Of a stretch of 64,000 nucleotides of DNA, positions 27,855 through 51,535 are shown one piece after another. The notes beneath the pieces are model-generated. The model worked only from the letters and a program-made list of their open reading frames with translations, did no database searches and had not been told where the DNA came from. The position numbers and the translations under genes are program-made. The DNA comes from Candidatus Hydrogenedentota bacterium (GTDB lineage Bacteria; Hydrogenedentota; Hydrogenedentia; Hydrogenedentales; CAITNO01): the NCBI GenBank assembly GCA_903893795.1, contig CAITNO010000082.1, positions 1-64,000 of the forward strand, in the 5' to 3' direction. How positions within the stretch are numbered: position 1 is the first letter of the stretch; every line of letters begins with the position of its first letter.

Positions 27855-27883
27855 TTGACAAATTGTGCGCCGCATGCTATGAA
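27855..27883 (+). promoter_or_regulatory. Strong sigma70 promoter of the small-protein unit
   Basis: TTGACA (27855-27860), 17-bp spacer, TATGAA (27878-27883). Initiation near 27890 would leave a leader of about 90 nt before the first small ORF. A terminator 560 bp downstream closes the unit. Confidence 0.7.
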
Positions 27884-27981
27884 TATGTTGGCGTTACGCA
27901 GTCCTGCGGTGACGTAGTGGGTTAGAAACAGGGCGTTGGTTCCTGCGAAGCGAGCGGTTCGCGGGAAGGAGAACAGCAGAG

Positions 27982-28122
27982 ATGAAGCATAACCGGCTTA
28001 TTACGCGAAAGCCTGAAATGGCCCAAACAACAACGACATTGTCGAATTTCCAGGCGTTCAAGGACTTCCTTGAACGGTTGGTGAGTCAGGCGATTGAGTT
28101 TATTTTCCAGATGACCATGTAA
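27982..28122 (+). CDS. Unknown small protein, 46 aa
   Basis: ATG at 27982 follows a purine-rich GGAAGGAGAA element; TAA at 28120. The N-terminal 20 residues are basic and Thr-rich. Residues 22-44 (NFQAFKDFLERLVSQAIEFI) read as an amphipathic helix with aromatics on one face and end in a short hydrophobic tail. It lacks a classic signal peptide or a clear membrane span. It is first in a two-gene unit with its own promoter and terminator. I do not recognise it; membrane-active peptide, RNA-linked leader peptide or regulator are all possible. Confidence 0.55.
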   Translation: MKHNRLITRKPEMAQTTTTLSNFQAFKDFLERLVSQAIEFIFQMTM

Positions 28123-28147
28123 ATACAAGCAAGAGGGAGTTCCCCGC

Positions 28148-28372
28148 ATGAAACGGCTTCGACACATGACGGCAGTTAGCCGCGTGCCTGCCACAGCGCA
28201 GATCAGCAATTACCAGATCAAGTTGGAAAGCACGACGGCAATTATCGACCGGCTTTTGCTGGTTCCGCGCCAGCAGCCTTGGAAGGCCACCGGCCCCAGC
28301 GGCACAACATCCAGCACGAGCACCAGCACGAGCAGTTCGACGGGCACGGGGCTGACCGGCCTGGGGCTCTGA
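28148..28372 (+). CDS. Unknown small protein, 74 aa, with Ser/Thr/Gly tail
   Basis: ATG at 28148 with AGAGGGAG 8 nt upstream, 25 nt after the preceding small gene. A basic N-terminus and a mixed middle (ISNYQIKLESTTAIIDRLLL) are followed after PRQQPW by a low-complexity tail of Ser, Thr and Gly to residue 74. GC-rich third positions fit coding use in this genome. No family is recognised. The pairing with the 46-aa gene, the strong promoter and the terminator argue that the transcript is real; whether this frame is the functional product is less certain. Confidence 0.5.
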   Translation: MKRLRHMTAVSRVPATAQISNYQIKLESTTAIIDRLLLVPRQQPWKATGPSGTTSSTSTSTSSSTGTGLTGLGL

Positions 28373-28407
28373 GTCTCGTCTGAAGTAACACAGCAAACGC
28401 AAGATTC

Positions 28408-28446
28408 CATGCGTTGGCCCTCATGCAGGGTCAACGCATGTGTTTT
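28408..28446 (+). terminator. Rho-independent terminator of the small-protein unit
   Basis: Stem of 14 bp (arms CATGCGTTGGCCCT and AGGGTCAACGCATG, one G-T pair), 5-nt loop, then TGTTTTTATT. It lies 35 bp after the 74-aa stop codon and just overlaps the end of the convergent TPR gene. Confidence 0.85.
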
Positions 28447-29192
28447 TATTGGGGAGTGTTCGATGGGGGCGGGAGGGCTCGGCAGAGTTCGCGGGCTTTT
28501 GACGCCTCGTCGCCCGAGGCCCCGCCCAGCAGAAACAGTTGCAGGTGCCGCCGCGCTTCCGCGAAGTCTCCCGCATTCGCGCACAGCGTGGCTATGCGGT
28601 ATTCGGCAAGCCCTCCCGGAACGAGTGCCGTGCATTCATCGTAGGCCTCCCGCGCGCCCTCCACATCCCCCCGATACTGCGCAACGCGCCCGGTGCTGTA
28701 CAGCATGTCCGCCTGCTTGAGCGGGTCAGTCGTTACTTCTGGCGCTTCACGCCAATGCCGCACCACCGAAGCCGCCTCATCCCCGCGCCGCAGGTGCAGC
28801 AACGCCTCCACCAGCACGCCCGCCCCCTTGAAGCGGGGGGTGCTTCCCGAGACCGACGCGGACAGTGTTTCCACGGCGTCCTTCATTTGGCCCTGCTCCC
28901 ACAGCAGCAGGCCCTTTGCGGCCAGGGTTCGGCTTTTGTCCGGCGGATAATCGAAACCGGCGTCCAGCGCCCGGTTGTACAGGGCCAGCGCCTTTTCCGC
29001 TTCCCCGGCCCGGCTCATCCATTCCGCCTCGATGACGAACAGGCGCGACACCGCATTGTCCACCTGTTGTAGCAGGATACCGCCATGCCGCCCATAAGCC
29101 ACCGCGGCGGCGGTGATGAAAAGCACGCCCGCAAGGGCAAGAAGGCTGGCCCAAAGGCACAGGCCGCGCATCATGCTGTTTTCGCCGTTCAT
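28446..29192 (-). CDS. Membrane-anchored TPR protein
   Basis: 248 aa from an ATG at 29192 that overlaps the TGA of the upstream gene by 4 nt (ATGA), so translation is probably coupled. Residues 9-30 form one membrane segment. The rest is helical with TPR-like units (AEKALALYNRALDAG, GDVEGAREAYDECTALVPGG, GDFAEARRHLQLFLLGG). A longer frame starting at 29363 lies inside the upstream gene and is unlikely. It probably assists the partner O-antigen-ligase-type protein on the periplasmic side; this is inferred from linkage. Confidence 0.75.
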   Translation of the reverse strand: MNGENSMMRGLCLWASLLALAGVLFITAAAVAYGRHGGILLQQVDNAVSRLFVIEAEWMSRAGEAEKALALYNRALDAGFDYPPDKSRTLAAKGLLLWEQGQMKDAVETLSASVSGSTPRFKGAGVLVEALLHLRRGDEAASVVRHWREAPEVTTDPLKQADMLYSTGRVAQYRGDVEGAREAYDECTALVPGGLAEYRIATLCANAGDFAEARRHLQLFLLGGASGDEASKARELCRALPPPSNTPQ

Positions 29193-32728: not shown

Positions 32729-32840
32729 CAAAGCTGTCCCACCTTTCCGTTATGTCTTTCCACTGCCAATCGCGGTTCTGGATGCTCTGAATCGGTCGAA
32801 AACGGGCTGTTTTGCATGCTTTTTTCCCGTCCAGATCCGC

Positions 32841-32869
32841 TTTTTATTGTGGCCCGGTTGTGGTATACT
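32841..32869 (+). promoter_or_regulatory. Probable extended -10 promoter for murC-ftsQ-ftsZ
   Basis: TATACT at 32864-32869 is preceded by TGG, giving an extended -10. The -35 region (TTTTTA, 17 bp upstream) is poor. Start of transcription near 32876 would leave a leader of about 30 nt before the TTG start codon. Confidence 0.45.
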
Positions 32870-32907
32870 CTTCCCCATACACAAGATGTTGCGTTTGGAG
32901 GTGTGTT

Positions 32908-34347
32908 TTGAACGGGCTGAAGCGCAAGGTACACTTCGTCGGCGTGGGCGGTATCGGCATGAGCGGTCTGGCCGAAATCCTGCTCAATCTCGGCTATGAC
33001 GTTTCCGGTTCCGATGCCAAGGCATCGGACATTACGGAGCGGCTGGAGAGCTGTGGACTGCGTTTCCACGAGGGGCACGAGGCGGCGAACATTGGCGAAG
33101 CCGACATTCTCGTGGTCAGCGCCGCCATCCCGCAGGACAATCCTGAAGCCGAGGCGGCCCGGCACCGCGGCACGCCGGTCATCCACCGCAGCGACCTGCT
33201 GGCCGACCTGATGCGGCTCAAGCCGCACGCGGTGGCGGTGGGGGGGACTCACGGAAAAACCACCACCACGTCGATGATCAGCGCGATCATGGACGTGGCC
33301 AACATCGGCGCAACGAGCATTGTCGGCGGCATCCTGCACCGCAGCGGCACCAACGCGCGATGGGGCACGGGCGACTACCTGGTGGCCGAGGCCGACGAGC
33401 ACGACGGCTCTTTCCTGCGGCTCCATCCGAGCATTGCGGTGGTCACCAACATCGATGCGGAGCATCTCGAATACTACGGGACGGTGGACCGCATCAAGCG
33501 CGCCTTCACCGACTTTTGCAACGGCATTCCCTTCTACGGCTACAGCATCGTCTGCGGCGATGATCCGAACACGCTGGACATCGTCAAGGATATCGAAAGC
33601 GTCTGCATCACCTACGGACTCGGAGAGGGCAGGTCCATCCAGGGCCGGAACATCAGCATCGTTCCCGGTGTGTCGGGCGGTTCCAGATCGGCCCAATTGG
33701 CATCGATGCGCACCCGCTTCGAGGTGGTTTGTCATGACGAGCGGTTGCACACTTCGGGCCTGCTGGGCACCGCCGAAATCAACGCGGTGGGCGCGCACAA
33801 CGTGCTGAACGCGCTGGCGGCCTGCGCGGTGGGTCTGTGCCTGGGCATGCGCTTCAGCCGCATCACCGATGGCCTGCGCCTTTTTGACGGTGTGCGCAGG
33901 CGGTTGCAGGTGTGCGGCGAGGTGCGCGGCGCGCTGGTTATCGAGGACTACGCCCACCATCCCACCGAAATCGCGAGCACGCTCGAGGCGATACGCTGGA
34001 TTCAGCCGCGCCGCGTGATTGGCGTGTTCCAGCCCCACCTCTACAGCCGGACCAAGTTCTTCTGCGATGATTTCGCGCGGGTCCTGGCGGGCATGGACCG
34101 GGCCATTGTGACGGATATTTACCCCTCGCGCGAGGCGCCCATGCCCGGCGTGGACTCGGGAATCATTGTTGACGCCGCGCGCCGCGCGGGCGCGGCCCAG
34201 GTGGAACTGGTGGGCGACATGGACGCCGTGCCCGCCTATCTTGCCCCCTCTCTGGAGCCGGGCGACGTGGTGCTTATTCTGGGTGCAGGCAATATCAACC
34301 GCATTGCGGGGCCTCTGCTGGCACAGATGGAGGCGCTGGGGTCATGA
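32908..34347 (+). CDS. murC: UDP-N-acetylmuramate--L-alanine ligase
   Basis: 479 aa. Adds L-Ala to UDP-MurNAc in the cytoplasm, the first peptide step of peptidoglycan synthesis. Seen: N-terminal Rossmann motif VHFVGVGGIGMSGLAEIL, ATP loop GGTHGKTTTT at about residues 111-120, EADEHDGSF, a YAHHPTEI motif in the C-terminal domain and a LGAGNI end. The start is TTG at 32908 with GGAGG 6 nt upstream; the next in-frame ATG upstream lies before the proposed promoter and adds non-homologous residues. The stop TGA overlaps the ftsQ start (ATGA). It heads a murC-ftsQ-ftsZ division cluster. Confidence 0.95.
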   Translation: MNGLKRKVHFVGVGGIGMSGLAEILLNLGYDVSGSDAKASDITERLESCGLRFHEGHEAANIGEADILVVSAAIPQDNPEAEAARHRGTPVIHRSDLLADLMRLKPHAVAVGGTHGKTTTTSMISAIMDVANIGATSIVGGILHRSGTNARWGTGDYLVAEADEHDGSFLRLHPSIAVVTNIDAEHLEYYGTVDRIKRAFTDFCNGIPFYGYSIVCGDDPNTLDIVKDIESVCITYGLGEGRSIQGRNISIVPGVSGGSRSAQLASMRTRFEVVCHDERLHTSGLLGTAEINAVGAHNVLNALAACAVGLCLGMRFSRITDGLRLFDGVRRRLQVCGEVRGALVIEDYAHHPTEIASTLEAIRWIQPRRVIGVFQPHLYSRTKFFCDDFARVLAGMDRAIVTDIYPSREAPMPGVDSGIIVDAARRAGAAQVELVGDMDAVPAYLAPSLEPGDVVLILGAGNINRIAGPLLAQMEALGS

Positions 34348-35138
34348 TGGCGTCAGACCGGGCCACAGACACAAAGGGCAAGCCGCGCACGTTGAAACGG
34401 AAGCCGGGCAAGGCTTTCTGGGGCGGTTGGACCGAGTGGACCATCAGCGTGGCCGTTATACTTGTTCTGGCTTTCGGAACGTACAAGTATGTCATATGGC
34501 CCAACACGCTGCAGGTAAAGCGGGTGCTTTTCCAGGGCAACAAAGTGCTTACGGATCAGCAGATTCTGGAAGCCGCGCAAATCACCGAGTCCGACACCAT
34601 TTTTTCCGTAAAGCGGGAAGTTGTGCGTCAGCGCGTGCTGGAGCTGCCCTATGTGAGGGAATGCACGGTTTCCATTGCCTCCTCCGCCATCATTATCCAG
34701 GTTGTCGAGCGCGTTCCCGTGGCGGCGCTGATGGTCAACAATCGTCTGTACGAGGTCGATCGGGGAGGCATGGTGCTGCGCTTGGTGCCGCCGCTTGCAC
34801 AGCCCAATGGTCCCATGGTGACCAATCTGCCCGATTTGAGCGCGGTCACGCCGGGGCAGCGGGTCGACAATCCGACGCTGGAGCAGGCCTTTCTCCTTTG
34901 GGACGCTTTTTCCGCCGACCTGGTGTCGAAGGAACTCACCCTGTCCGAGATTTCTGCCCAGAGTGAGAACACGCTCTACATGTTCTTTGAAGAACTGCCC
35001 TTCGACACGCGATGGGGTCGCTCCGATTTTCCCACGCAGGTGCACCGCTTCAACCTGCTTTGGCGTGAAAAAGGCGGAAAACTTCCCTGCACCGAATTTA
35101 TCGACATGCGTTTTAACAACAACATCGTCTGCAAATAG
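34344..35138 (+). CDS. ftsQ: Cell division protein FtsQ/DivIB
   Basis: 264 aa, single-pass inner-membrane division protein that links early and late divisome parts. There is a short basic cytoplasmic N-terminus, a membrane segment at about residues 31-52, a POTRA-type region (LQVKRVLFQGNKVLTDQQILEAAQI) and the FtsQ beta domain with VVERVPVAALMVNNRLYEVDRGG. The C-terminus is well diverged. The start overlaps the murC stop; TGGAGG sits 10 nt upstream. The place between murC and ftsZ supports the assignment. Confidence 0.88.
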   Translation: MMASDRATDTKGKPRTLKRKPGKAFWGGWTEWTISVAVILVLAFGTYKYVIWPNTLQVKRVLFQGNKVLTDQQILEAAQITESDTIFSVKREVVRQRVLELPYVRECTVSIASSAIIIQVVERVPVAALMVNNRLYEVDRGGMVLRLVPPLAQPNGPMVTNLPDLSAVTPGQRVDNPTLEQAFLLWDAFSADLVSKELTLSEISAQSENTLYMFFEELPFDTRWGRSDFPTQVHRFNLLWREKGGKLPCTEFIDMRFNNNIVCK

Positions 35139-35206
35139 GCGCAAACCACGAGCAGGAACGGGGCGCGGCCGACCGCGGCGCGACGCACGTTCCAAGGAGA
35201 CGCAGC

Positions 35207-36541
35207 ATGACACCGACTGACGGCCAGGACCAGGAATTCTCGACTTTTGACCAAAAAGCCGTGTTGAAAGTCTGCGGCGTGGGCGGCGGCGGCGGCAACG
35301 CCGTGGACCGGATGATCGAGGCCCAGATGGGCGGCGTGCAGTTTATCGCCATCAACACGGACGCGCAGGCGCTCAAGAAATCCAAGGCGGAGATCCGTCT
35401 CCAGATAGGCTCCAGTCTCAGCAACGGCCTGGGTGCGGGCGCGCGGCCTGAAGTCGGCTGCCAGGCCTGCGAGGAGGACCGCGACAAGGTGCGCGAAGTG
35501 CTTCGCGGCGCCAATCTCGTTTTCCTGACCGCCGGCCTCGGCGGCGGCACCGGCACCGGTGCGGCCCCGATTGTCGCGGAAGAAGCGGGCGCGGGCGGCG
35601 CGCTCACGGTCGCCATCGTTACGCTCCCCTTCAGTTTCGAGGGTCAGGAGCGCATGGAGAACGCGTTGCGGGGGCTGGATGAACTGCGCAAACATGTGGA
35701 CACGCTCATTGTCGTGCCCAATGACCGCATCGCCGAACTGGCCCACACCAACACCTCGCTGCTGGACGCCTTCCGCCACGGAGACGAGGTGCTGCACAAC
35801 GGTGTGCGCGCCATTTCCGAACTGATCACGCTGCCCGGCCTGATTAATGTGGACTTTGCGGACGTTAAAACGATCATGCAGTCCAAGGGACGCGCGTTGA
35901 TGGGCATCGGCATCGCCCAGGGCGAAGACCGCGCCGTGCGTGCCGCGCGCGAGGCCATCGACTGCCCGCTTCTGGAACAGTCCGACATCCACGGCGCCAG
36001 GGGCGTCATCGTCAATGTGCGCGGTGGGTCGGACATCCGCATGCGCGAAGTGCAGGACGCCATCAACTATGTCAAGCGCAACGCCAGCCCGGACGCCAAC
36101 ATCATTTGGGGCGTCGCGCCTGAGACTGAGGTGCGCGACGATTTCCAGGTCACCGTCATTGCCGCCGGCTTCCCGAACCGCGATGTGGAAGAGTACAGAA
36201 ACAAATCGCAGTCCGCGGCGCTCGATGATCTGCTCGATGCAGAACAATCCTCCGCCCCTGTTCCGGCCGCGCCCGTCCCGGCCCCGGCAAGGGTCGAAGC
36301 CGCGCCGCCCAAGCAGGAAGTCCCGGTGGCAGCCGCGCCAAGGCAGCCCGAAGCGGCTCCCGCGCCTGCCCCCCCAAAACCGGCCCCAAAAGCGCCGCAG
36401 CCGCCTGTCAAGGCACCGCAGCAGTTGGACCTGCCCAACGGCAAGGGCGGTTTTACCACGGTCTTTTCCTCAGGGGCCACCCCGGAGGAAGATGACATGC
36501 GCATCCCGGCCTACATGCGGCAGCAGCCCAAGAAGCAGTAG
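35207..36541 (+). CDS. ftsZ: Cell division protein FtsZ
   Basis: 444 aa tubulin homolog that forms the division ring. Seen: GVGGGGGNAVDRM, the tubulin signature GGGTGTG at about residues 111-117, the T7 loop (GLINVDFADVKTIM), a Pro/Ala-rich linker of about 90 residues (350-435) and a conserved-type C-terminal peptide DDMRIPAYMRQQ. AAGGAG lies 7 nt before the ATG, 68 nt after ftsQ. No ftsA lies between ftsQ and ftsZ, so membrane attachment of the ring must use FtsA from elsewhere or another anchor. Confidence 0.97.
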   Translation: MTPTDGQDQEFSTFDQKAVLKVCGVGGGGGNAVDRMIEAQMGGVQFIAINTDAQALKKSKAEIRLQIGSSLSNGLGAGARPEVGCQACEEDRDKVREVLRGANLVFLTAGLGGGTGTGAAPIVAEEAGAGGALTVAIVTLPFSFEGQERMENALRGLDELRKHVDTLIVVPNDRIAELAHTNTSLLDAFRHGDEVLHNGVRAISELITLPGLINVDFADVKTIMQSKGRALMGIGIAQGEDRAVRAAREAIDCPLLEQSDIHGARGVIVNVRGGSDIRMREVQDAINYVKRNASPDANIIWGVAPETEVRDDFQVTVIAAGFPNRDVEEYRNKSQSAALDDLLDAEQSSAPVPAAPVPAPARVEAAPPKQEVPVAAAPRQPEAAPAPAPPKPAPKAPQPPVKAPQQLDLPNGKGGFTTVFSSGATPEEDDMRIPAYMRQQPKKQ

Positions 36542-41570: not shown

Positions 41571-41646
41571 TGGGGCGTCGCCAAGTTGGTAAGGCACCAG
41601 GTTTTGGTCCTGGCATTCGTTGGTTCGAATCCAGCCGCCCCAGCCA
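41571..41646 (+). tRNA. trnQ: tRNA-Gln (anticodon TTG)
   Basis: Cloverleaf read by eye: acceptor TGGGGCG pairs with CGCCCCA (41636-41642), discriminator G, encoded CCA at 41644-41646. Anticodon stem CCAGG/CCTGG encloses TTTTGGT, so the anticodon is TTG (reads CAA). T arm GTTGG-TTCGAAT-CCAGC is standard. It sits about 70 bp before prs on the same strand. Confidence 0.95.
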
Positions 41647-51298: not shown

Positions 51299-51321
51299 GA
51301 TACGGTAATTAGACTTAAGAG

Positions 51322-51435
51322 CAACCTTCAGGGCAGGGTGAAATTCCTGACCGGCGGTGACAGCCCGCGAGCGTGAAAACGCAGATTCTGGTGGAATTCC
51401 AGGGCCGACGGTAGAGTCCGGATGAAAGAAGGTTG
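51322..51435 (+). promoter_or_regulatory. FMN riboswitch (RFN element)
   Basis: The closing helix CAACCTTC/GAAGGTTG brackets the conserved RFN core: AGGGCAGGGTGAAATTCC, GACCGGCGGTGACAGCCCGC, GGTGGAATTCCAGGGCCGAC, GGTAGAGTCCGGATGAAAG. FMN binding should favour termination of the riboflavin-biosynthesis transcript. Downstream, ACCTGCG/CGCAGGT (51446-51469) and GGTGCGGT/ACCGCACC (51467-51488) overlap and cannot both form, and a terminator follows at 51536. Confidence 0.96.
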
Positions 51436-51535
51436 AACGGTTTTGACCTGCGGCAGTGTTTTCGCAGGTGCGGTTTTGGGACCGCACCGTGGGGGAACAC
51501 GCATGAGGGAGGACCGTTCCAAATCAGTTGTTGCG

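Follow-up and report, generated by a model that had tools for sequence, protein, structure and literature searches.

Conserved small proteins P1 and P2 share a leader motif with an apparently undescribed, possibly RiPP-like superfamily in Hydrogenedentota

What could be the role of two short anonymous genes that sit between a promoter and a terminator of their own, next to a gene for a giant surface protein? The window analyzed here, i.e. the whole stretch of 64,000 nucleotides, comes from contig G000:C82 of a Candidatus Hydrogenedentes genome, and by inspection of the sequence its positions 27855-28450 were found to hold a promoter, two ORFs (P1 and P2) and a terminator, arranged as follows.

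27855-27883, plus strand: promoter, TTGACA-17 bp-TATGAA with extended -10 (TGcTATGAA), from the sequence; architecture kept in 21 of 21 orthologous loci
27855-27860, plus strand: -35 element TTGACA, from the sequence
27875-27876, plus strand: TG of the extended -10, from the sequence
27878-27883, plus strand: -10 element TATGAA, from the sequence
27884-27981, plus strand: 5' leader of the transcript, from the sequence
27966-27971, plus strand: ribosome-binding site AAGGAG of P1, from the sequence
27982-28122, plus strand: P1 (ORF1), precursor-like peptide of 46 aa, MKHNRLITRKPEMAQ...FIFQMTM, from homologs, profile matches and dN/dS
27982-28026, plus strand: leader motif of P1, residues 1-15, MKHNRLITRKPEMAQ, from the DNA motif pattern and logo
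28148-28372, plus strand: P2 (ORF2), precursor-like peptide of 74 aa, behind GAGGGAG, from homologs, dN/dS and invariant residues
28148-28201, plus strand: leader motif of P2, residues 1-18, MKRLRHMTAVSRVPATAQ, from profile-profile matches
28208-28258, plus strand: predicted central helix of P2, residues 21-37, followed by an invariant RQ.PWK segment, from AlphaFold2 and conservation
28301-28369, plus strand: Ser/Thr/Gly tail of P2, residues 52-74, from the alignment; predicted to be disordered
28408-28450, plus strand: intrinsic terminator with a 14-bp stem, a 5-nt loop and a U-run, from a scan; hairpins follow P2 in most relatives

The first-pass annotation had described this arrangement as a near-consensus promoter, two short genes with good ribosome binding sites and a strong terminator, and each of these elements was recovered in its place. 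The accompanying remark that both proteins look unfamiliar was also borne out, as neither P1 nor P2 had any match in Pfam or NCBIfam even at E<=10. Both translations are devoid of cysteines. The P1-P2 promoter was not listed by a strict promoter scan of the window, because TATGAA lacks the final T.

A search with the P2 sequence alone (E<=0.1) brought up relatives in 47 of 60 related genomes, and a P2 profile identified the gene in 49 out of 68 Hydrogenedentota genomes (E<=0.01). A P1 homolog was situated directly upstream of P2 at all of the 20 loci inspected, and a search with the P1 profile gave matches across the phylum, including these upstream homologs. The locus is single-copy and syntenically stable. 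TTGACA-N14-TGnTAtNNN, always with a spacer of 17, precedes P1-P2 in 21 out of 21 loci, where the upstream DNA and the transcript leaders are unalignable and the 5' leader varies in both length and sequence. This promoter is strong and of a housekeeping type. Terminator-like hairpins with T-tracts, unrelated in sequence, occur 3' of P2 in most loci; in three cases (the L015, L016/L018, L021 group) a clear hairpin was not seen after P2, and loci of this kind belong mainly to the AT-rich g13 genomes. Within the genus, P1 had a dN/dS of 0.04-0.17 and P2 one of 0.10-0.15, most of the mismatches falling on codon position 3, and in a set of 18 P2 genes the median P2 dN/dS of unsaturated pairs was 0.25. 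Given the conserved promoter amid diverged flanks, the homologs and the purifying selection, P1-P2 is a protein-coding unit that is conserved and has a transcript of its own.

That the ORFs are incidental and the unit encodes a regulatory or structural RNA would fit a short transcript framed by a strong promoter and terminator, and is highly improbable in view of the codon-position bias, the low dN/dS, the unalignable transcript leaders of the relatives and the lack of any Rfam match in the P1-P2 transcript region. An RNA-only unit was consequently rejected on the codon statistics together with the Rfam result. A homolog search and a test for purifying selection had been proposed along with the first-pass annotation, which would have been undermined by a lack of homologs, by a lack of synonymous bias or by conservation of RNA structure only, and the results went in its favor on all three counts.

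The alignment of P2 displays the invariant residues S20, N21, K25, I33, D34, L37, L38, R41, Q42, W45 and K46. The Ser/Thr/Gly tail pointed out at the outset is present at residues 52-74 and corresponds in relatives to a Thr/Asp/Gly/Ser-rich stretch of variable length. In the AlphaFold2 model of P2 the helix at residues 21-37 is the sole ordered element (pLDDT about 70-77), the ends being predicted as disordered, with a pLDDT of about 47-54 in the tail. The "amphipathic aromatic helix" initially ascribed to P1 holds for the window's own protein (hydrophobic moment 0.446, shuffle p 0.017); for the family as a whole amphipathicity was not supported, since the same shuffle test gave p 0.43 for the P1 homolog L014 and p 0.62 for P2. 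Neither P1 nor P2 is markedly hydrophobic (<H> 0.13-0.17).

The surroundings of the unit are dominated by a giant ORF of 7593 aa (window 4570-27351, minus strand) with, by inspection, HYR/DUF5011-like, Kelch-like and glycine-rich repeats. Its N-terminal 600 aa had no match beside the P1-P2 unit in congeners, and the downstream TPR/Wzy-like genes stay adjacent to P1-P2 there. The giant surface-protein gene, beside which the first-pass annotation places the unit, is an incidental and non-conserved neighbor, and a dependence of P1-P2 on it was rejected since no match to its N-terminus was found at this place in the congeners. A sequence TTGACA-17-TAGACT on the minus strand (27487-27459) could serve the giant ORF. 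In other genomes a kinase-like gene often adjoins P1-P2, mostly followed by RsfS-, GatB- and GatA-like genes (L015, L016, L018, L020, L021, L024, L031 and L073), and the pair in L073, although diverged, is still found at this position beside the kinase-like gene. As this adjacency is frequent, not universal, and the kinase gene is convergent, it was read as synteny, and a functional link to these neighbors was rejected. Elsewhere in the window we identified an FMN riboswitch (Rfam RF00050, 113.7 bits, 51320-51437, plus strand), a tRNA-Gln(TTG) (41571-41646, plus strand) and, by inspection of translations, an apparent division cluster of murC, ftsQ/divIB-like and ftsZ genes (32812-36541, plus strand).

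A wider family is apparent from the N-termini. P1, P2 and about 150 other ORFs have in common the motif M-K-H-x3-[IVL]-[ST]-[RK]-x-P-x-x-A-Q, and all ORFs with this leader are short (34-80 aa) and diverge in their C-terminal parts. Of the 68 Hydrogenedentota genomes, 40 had a match to a DNA pattern of the motif, as against none of 60 genomes of other phyla, and the translated matches were without exception ORFs of 36-80 aa; a reversed pattern gave essentially no matches, and a control pattern one codon shorter matched in 1 of the 68 phylum genomes. In a logo of 130 distinct ORFs of the strict form the information is high up to position 15 and then drops, a result that is circular at the positions fixed by the selection pattern, which left positions 5, 9, 12 and 15 free. 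The P1 profile also matched many other small ORFs through the N-terminal part alone. In profile-profile comparisons P1 matched P2 with 96.8% probability over 32 columns, and P2 matched subfamily (c) of the peptide arrays described below with 91.9%. Taken together, the matches P1-P2, P2-(c), P1-(c), P1-(b) and P1-(d) had probabilities of 92-97% (E 7e-7 to 2e-10), and those of P1/P2 to the three array subfamilies reach some 20 columns beyond the leader. Judged by these comparisons, P1 and P2 are paralogs and belong to a superfamily of leader-bearing small proteins that is apparently undescribed. The initial suggestion of an undescribed small system therefore stands as regards a conserved, independently transcribed pair and fails as regards its isolation, because the leader is shared with a superfamily. 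The unit had also been called self-contained, which does not hold for a system; P1 and P2 are paralogous, and a RiPP-like gene block lies elsewhere in the genome (contig C22 of G000).

The paralogy also bears on the reading of P1 and P2, on their own, as a toxin-antitoxin or two-peptide bacteriocin pair. Two short co-directional genes, the first of them for a helical peptide, would suit such a pair, which we nevertheless hold to be very unlikely. Toxin-antitoxin systems consist of two unlike proteins, the second of which neutralizes the first, with a sporadic distribution, and P1/P2 are paralogs with the same leader, single-copy and vertically conserved phylum-wide; they have no family match, and no relatives of them were found in the viral contigs searched. 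As for a bacteriocin pair, the P1/P2 leader ends in A-Q, no double-glycine leader is apparent, and in the translations inspected the varied neighbors of P1-P2 include no apparent C39 transporter or immunity gene. An isolated pair of either kind was rejected on the grounds of paralogy and vertical conservation, and a phage origin on the lack of relatives in viral contigs.

Several variants of the leader proteins can be told apart. A very conserved protein of 38-41 aa, MKHIKPISTxRADAFTDFxNAxWRAWxDFRxAKKNE, has R-A-D where the others have P-x-x-A and is usually the last in an array, adjoining the first GNAT gene (L068, L069, L074, L075, L081, L087, L142, L144, L149 and L150). Array subfamily (b) has an invariant cysteine pair (C...CF). 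Several leader proteins stand alone, with no gene block within 5-7 kb. Among the stand-alone proteins are some that contain cysteines, unlike the helical ones (L163:5456, minus strand; L166:3273, plus strand; L158:6195, plus strand), and a subfamily of ~55 aa with the sequence ...VILLLLxxxFxDWxNxxxVxxNLxKFYxKTP (L077, L101, L113 and L164), whose member in L077 adjoins a PilC/GspF-like gene. The genome of the window itself has two more stand-alone leader proteins, both conserved in the congener G002, namely a hydrophobic one of 60 aa (G000:C67, L155:6521-6703, minus strand) and a P1-like one of 42 aa (G000:C69:55135-55260, L070).

Many leader proteins are encoded in tandem, with 3-6 to an array, and these arrays adjoin a block of collinear genes in the order GNAT-GNAT-CPBP-ABC-ABC2-c4. 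The components of this block are:

c7 and c3: GNAT-type acyltransferases, matching PF13302 above the cut-off
c15: CPBP/Rce1-like membrane protease
c0: ABC ATPase
c16: ABC-2 permease
c4: protein of ~650 aa with an RRE-like domain (residues 1-90 in the window genome), a radical-SAM/SPASM body and a GNAT domain; in the window genome at G000:C22:5847-7796

With the blocks located by c4 alone, leader ORFs were present upstream in 13 out of 18 block loci with enough flank. The first genes of arrays often have a promoter similar to that of P1-P2, TTGAC(A/T)-TGnTATACT. The window genome has its own block with an array of at least 3 leader ORFs (G000:C22:487-7796, locus L072). The clustering with candidate maturation genes that is looked for in a RiPP precursor is seen for the array peptides; P1/P2 are encoded away from the block and were never beside it in the loci examined. 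In some genomes the array and c4 are on separate contigs (e.g. G031, and G008 with C117 vs C173), which makes an action of the block in trans plausible. P2 was found in 48 of the 62 genomes with c4 vs 1 of the 6 without it (Fisher p 0.005), a weak correlation since most of the negatives belong to one family (f4), and matches to the leader pattern (37 of 62 vs 3 of 6 genomes) were uninformative in this respect. In G019, which is 99% complete, a leader peptide (L103/L175) occurs and c4 does not.

The c4 protein was identified in 62 of 68 genomes of the phylum vs 0 of 146 others (E<=1e-25). Its profile matches CteB (5WGG), a maturase that forms thioethers, over 435 positions, i.e. the whole CteB chain, with an E of 2.5e-32, and a Foldseek search with c4 returned the same structure as top match (E 2e-16), followed by GNAT acetyltransferases. 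The c4 residues opposite CX3CX2C and GGEP of CteB are neither conserved nor cysteine. In an alignment of 25 c4 sequences the invariant cysteines are instead found as CxCxxC in the first (RRE) domain and as CxxC...C...C in the SPASM-like part. The NCBIfam radical-SAM/SPASM models match c4 far below their cut-offs, and the C-terminus scores just below the Pfam GNAT cut-off and matches GNAT structures in Foldseek. Because of the CteB match lacking the catalytic motifs and the matches to GNAT structures, c4 is read as a fusion of RRE, dead radical-SAM, SPASM and GNAT domains.

Compared with known systems, c4 resembles CteB and the other SCIFF/ranthipeptide maturases (RRE, radical SAM and SPASM) in whole-chain alignment, fold, N-terminal RRE and C-terminal SPASM-like cysteines, and differs in the missing CX3CX2C and GGEP, the additional invariant CxCxxC of the RRE and the C-terminal GNAT domain. 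The 25 c4 sequences have no invariant cysteine at the place of the CX3CX2C by which ranthipeptide and sactipeptide maturases are recognized, and P1/P2 are not the Cys-rich, six-cysteine precursors of ranthipeptides. A precedent for acylation of RiPP cores by GNAT enzymes is found in the selidamides, which are GNAT-acylated RiPP lipopeptides, e.g. phaeornamide with its NHLP-family precursor and lanthionine synthetase (PMC9505594). Like the selidamide pathways, the present loci encode GNAT-superfamily enzymes (c3 and c7) with leader-bearing precursors and transporters; unlike in selidamides, the leader has ~15 aa, the partner is a pseudo-radical-SAM protein and acylation is presumed. No NHLP or Nif11-type leader was detected on P1/P2 with Pfam and NCBIfam (E<=10). 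From RRE-containing RiPP systems in general, P1/P2 differ in that their genes lie apart from that of the RRE protein; a survey of such systems (PMC12710340) does not mention the c4 fusion in its main text, where the words GNAT and acetyltransferase do not occur either. Within the incomplete coverage of the literature searched, no RiPP family of Hydrogenedentota and no RRE/dead-radical-SAM/SPASM/GNAT fusion was found described. Proteins of the P1/P2 type may be present as anonymous clusters in a large catalogue of new protein families of uncultured taxa (PMC10849945), whose main text makes no mention of Hydrogenedentota.

The system works most like a RiPP pathway, yet it is neither of the ranthipeptide/sactipeptide type nor an NHLP/Nif11 selidamide. 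It combines small precursors, with a conserved N-terminal leader and a divergent C-terminal core, with a genome-encoded RRE protein, c4, and among the sampled genomes it was found only in Hydrogenedentota. We see an even chance that P1/P2 serve a new RiPP-like system as its stand-alone pair of precursors, which is conserved, transcribed constitutively and acted on in trans. The RRE of c4 would then bind the P1/P2 leader in trans as its recognition sequence, and a GNAT domain would acylate or acetylate the core, for which the invariant K25 and K46 of P2 are candidate sites, at a guess. The ABC-2 transporter might export the helical and partly hydrophobic product, and the CPBP protease might either trim the leader or confer self-protection; the product may act at membranes or surfaces. 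P1/P2 would represent the constitutive, conserved housekeeping member, and the arrays the fast-varying ones. Against a RiPP system speak the separation of P1/P2 from the block, the G019 leader peptide that occurs in the absence of c4, the several stand-alone leader proteins with no block nearby, the dependence of the P2-c4 correlation mostly on one family, the missing radical-SAM cluster motif of c4 and the strong conservation of the P2 core, which is unusual for a warfare peptide.

Some of these points lend themselves to other explanations. Phenol-soluble modulins are short helical peptides that come in families and have an ABC exporter, Pmt. By analogy, the shared N-terminus could be a signal for export or targeting, the peptides being secreted unmodified by the ABC-2 transporter and P1/P2 forming a bulk, constitutive surface-active pair. 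This appears rather unlikely to us, although the block holds an ABC-2 ATPase and permease, many cores are hydrophobic helices (two array members have a mean Eisenberg hydrophobicity of 0.49-0.60), the P1-P2 promoter is strong and c4 has no radical-SAM motif. Against it, the block also encodes three GNAT domains and an RRE-like domain, which in modification pathways typically recognizes the peptide, and P1 and P2 themselves have the low hydrophobicity given above. The likeness to phenol-soluble modulins and Pmt lies in the short helical peptides and the ABC ATPase/permease exporter; modulins are not known to have such a shared leader or RRE or GNAT partners, and they differ in phylogenetic range.

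Less probable still is that P1/P2 are structural subunits, intracellular or of the envelope, with the N-terminal segment as a docking strand for co-assembly or for a common scaffold, and with c4 as this scaffold and not a maturase. The near-invariant core residues, the stable single-copy locus, the constitutive type of promoter and the degeneracy of c4 as a radical SAM enzyme would all agree with such a role. A mostly disordered P2 with one predicted helix would not, and GNATs along with tandem arrays of sharply diverging cores are atypical of a structural complex; the leader is, moreover, confined to small proteins.

In its broader form, the RiPP-like reading supposes a class largely confined to one phylum, with many leader proteins per genome that are handled in trans by a scaffold of dead radical-SAM and GNAT domains, and with P1/P2 as a near-universal, constitutive, modified housekeeping pair; we hold this to be somewhat short of an even chance. 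The analysis has placed two anonymous ORFs in an apparently undescribed superfamily, which is widespread in its uncultured phylum and was not found in the other phyla sampled. The candidate partner c4 is an odd one, with a radical-SAM maturase fold in which the peptide-recognition domain was kept, the catalytic cluster motif was lost and an acyltransferase was added, and it offers a testable claim on how a RiPP maturase can turn into a scaffold. Lastly, the motif M-K-H-x3-h-S/T-R/K-x-P-x-x-A allows the annotation of genes that curated libraries miss.
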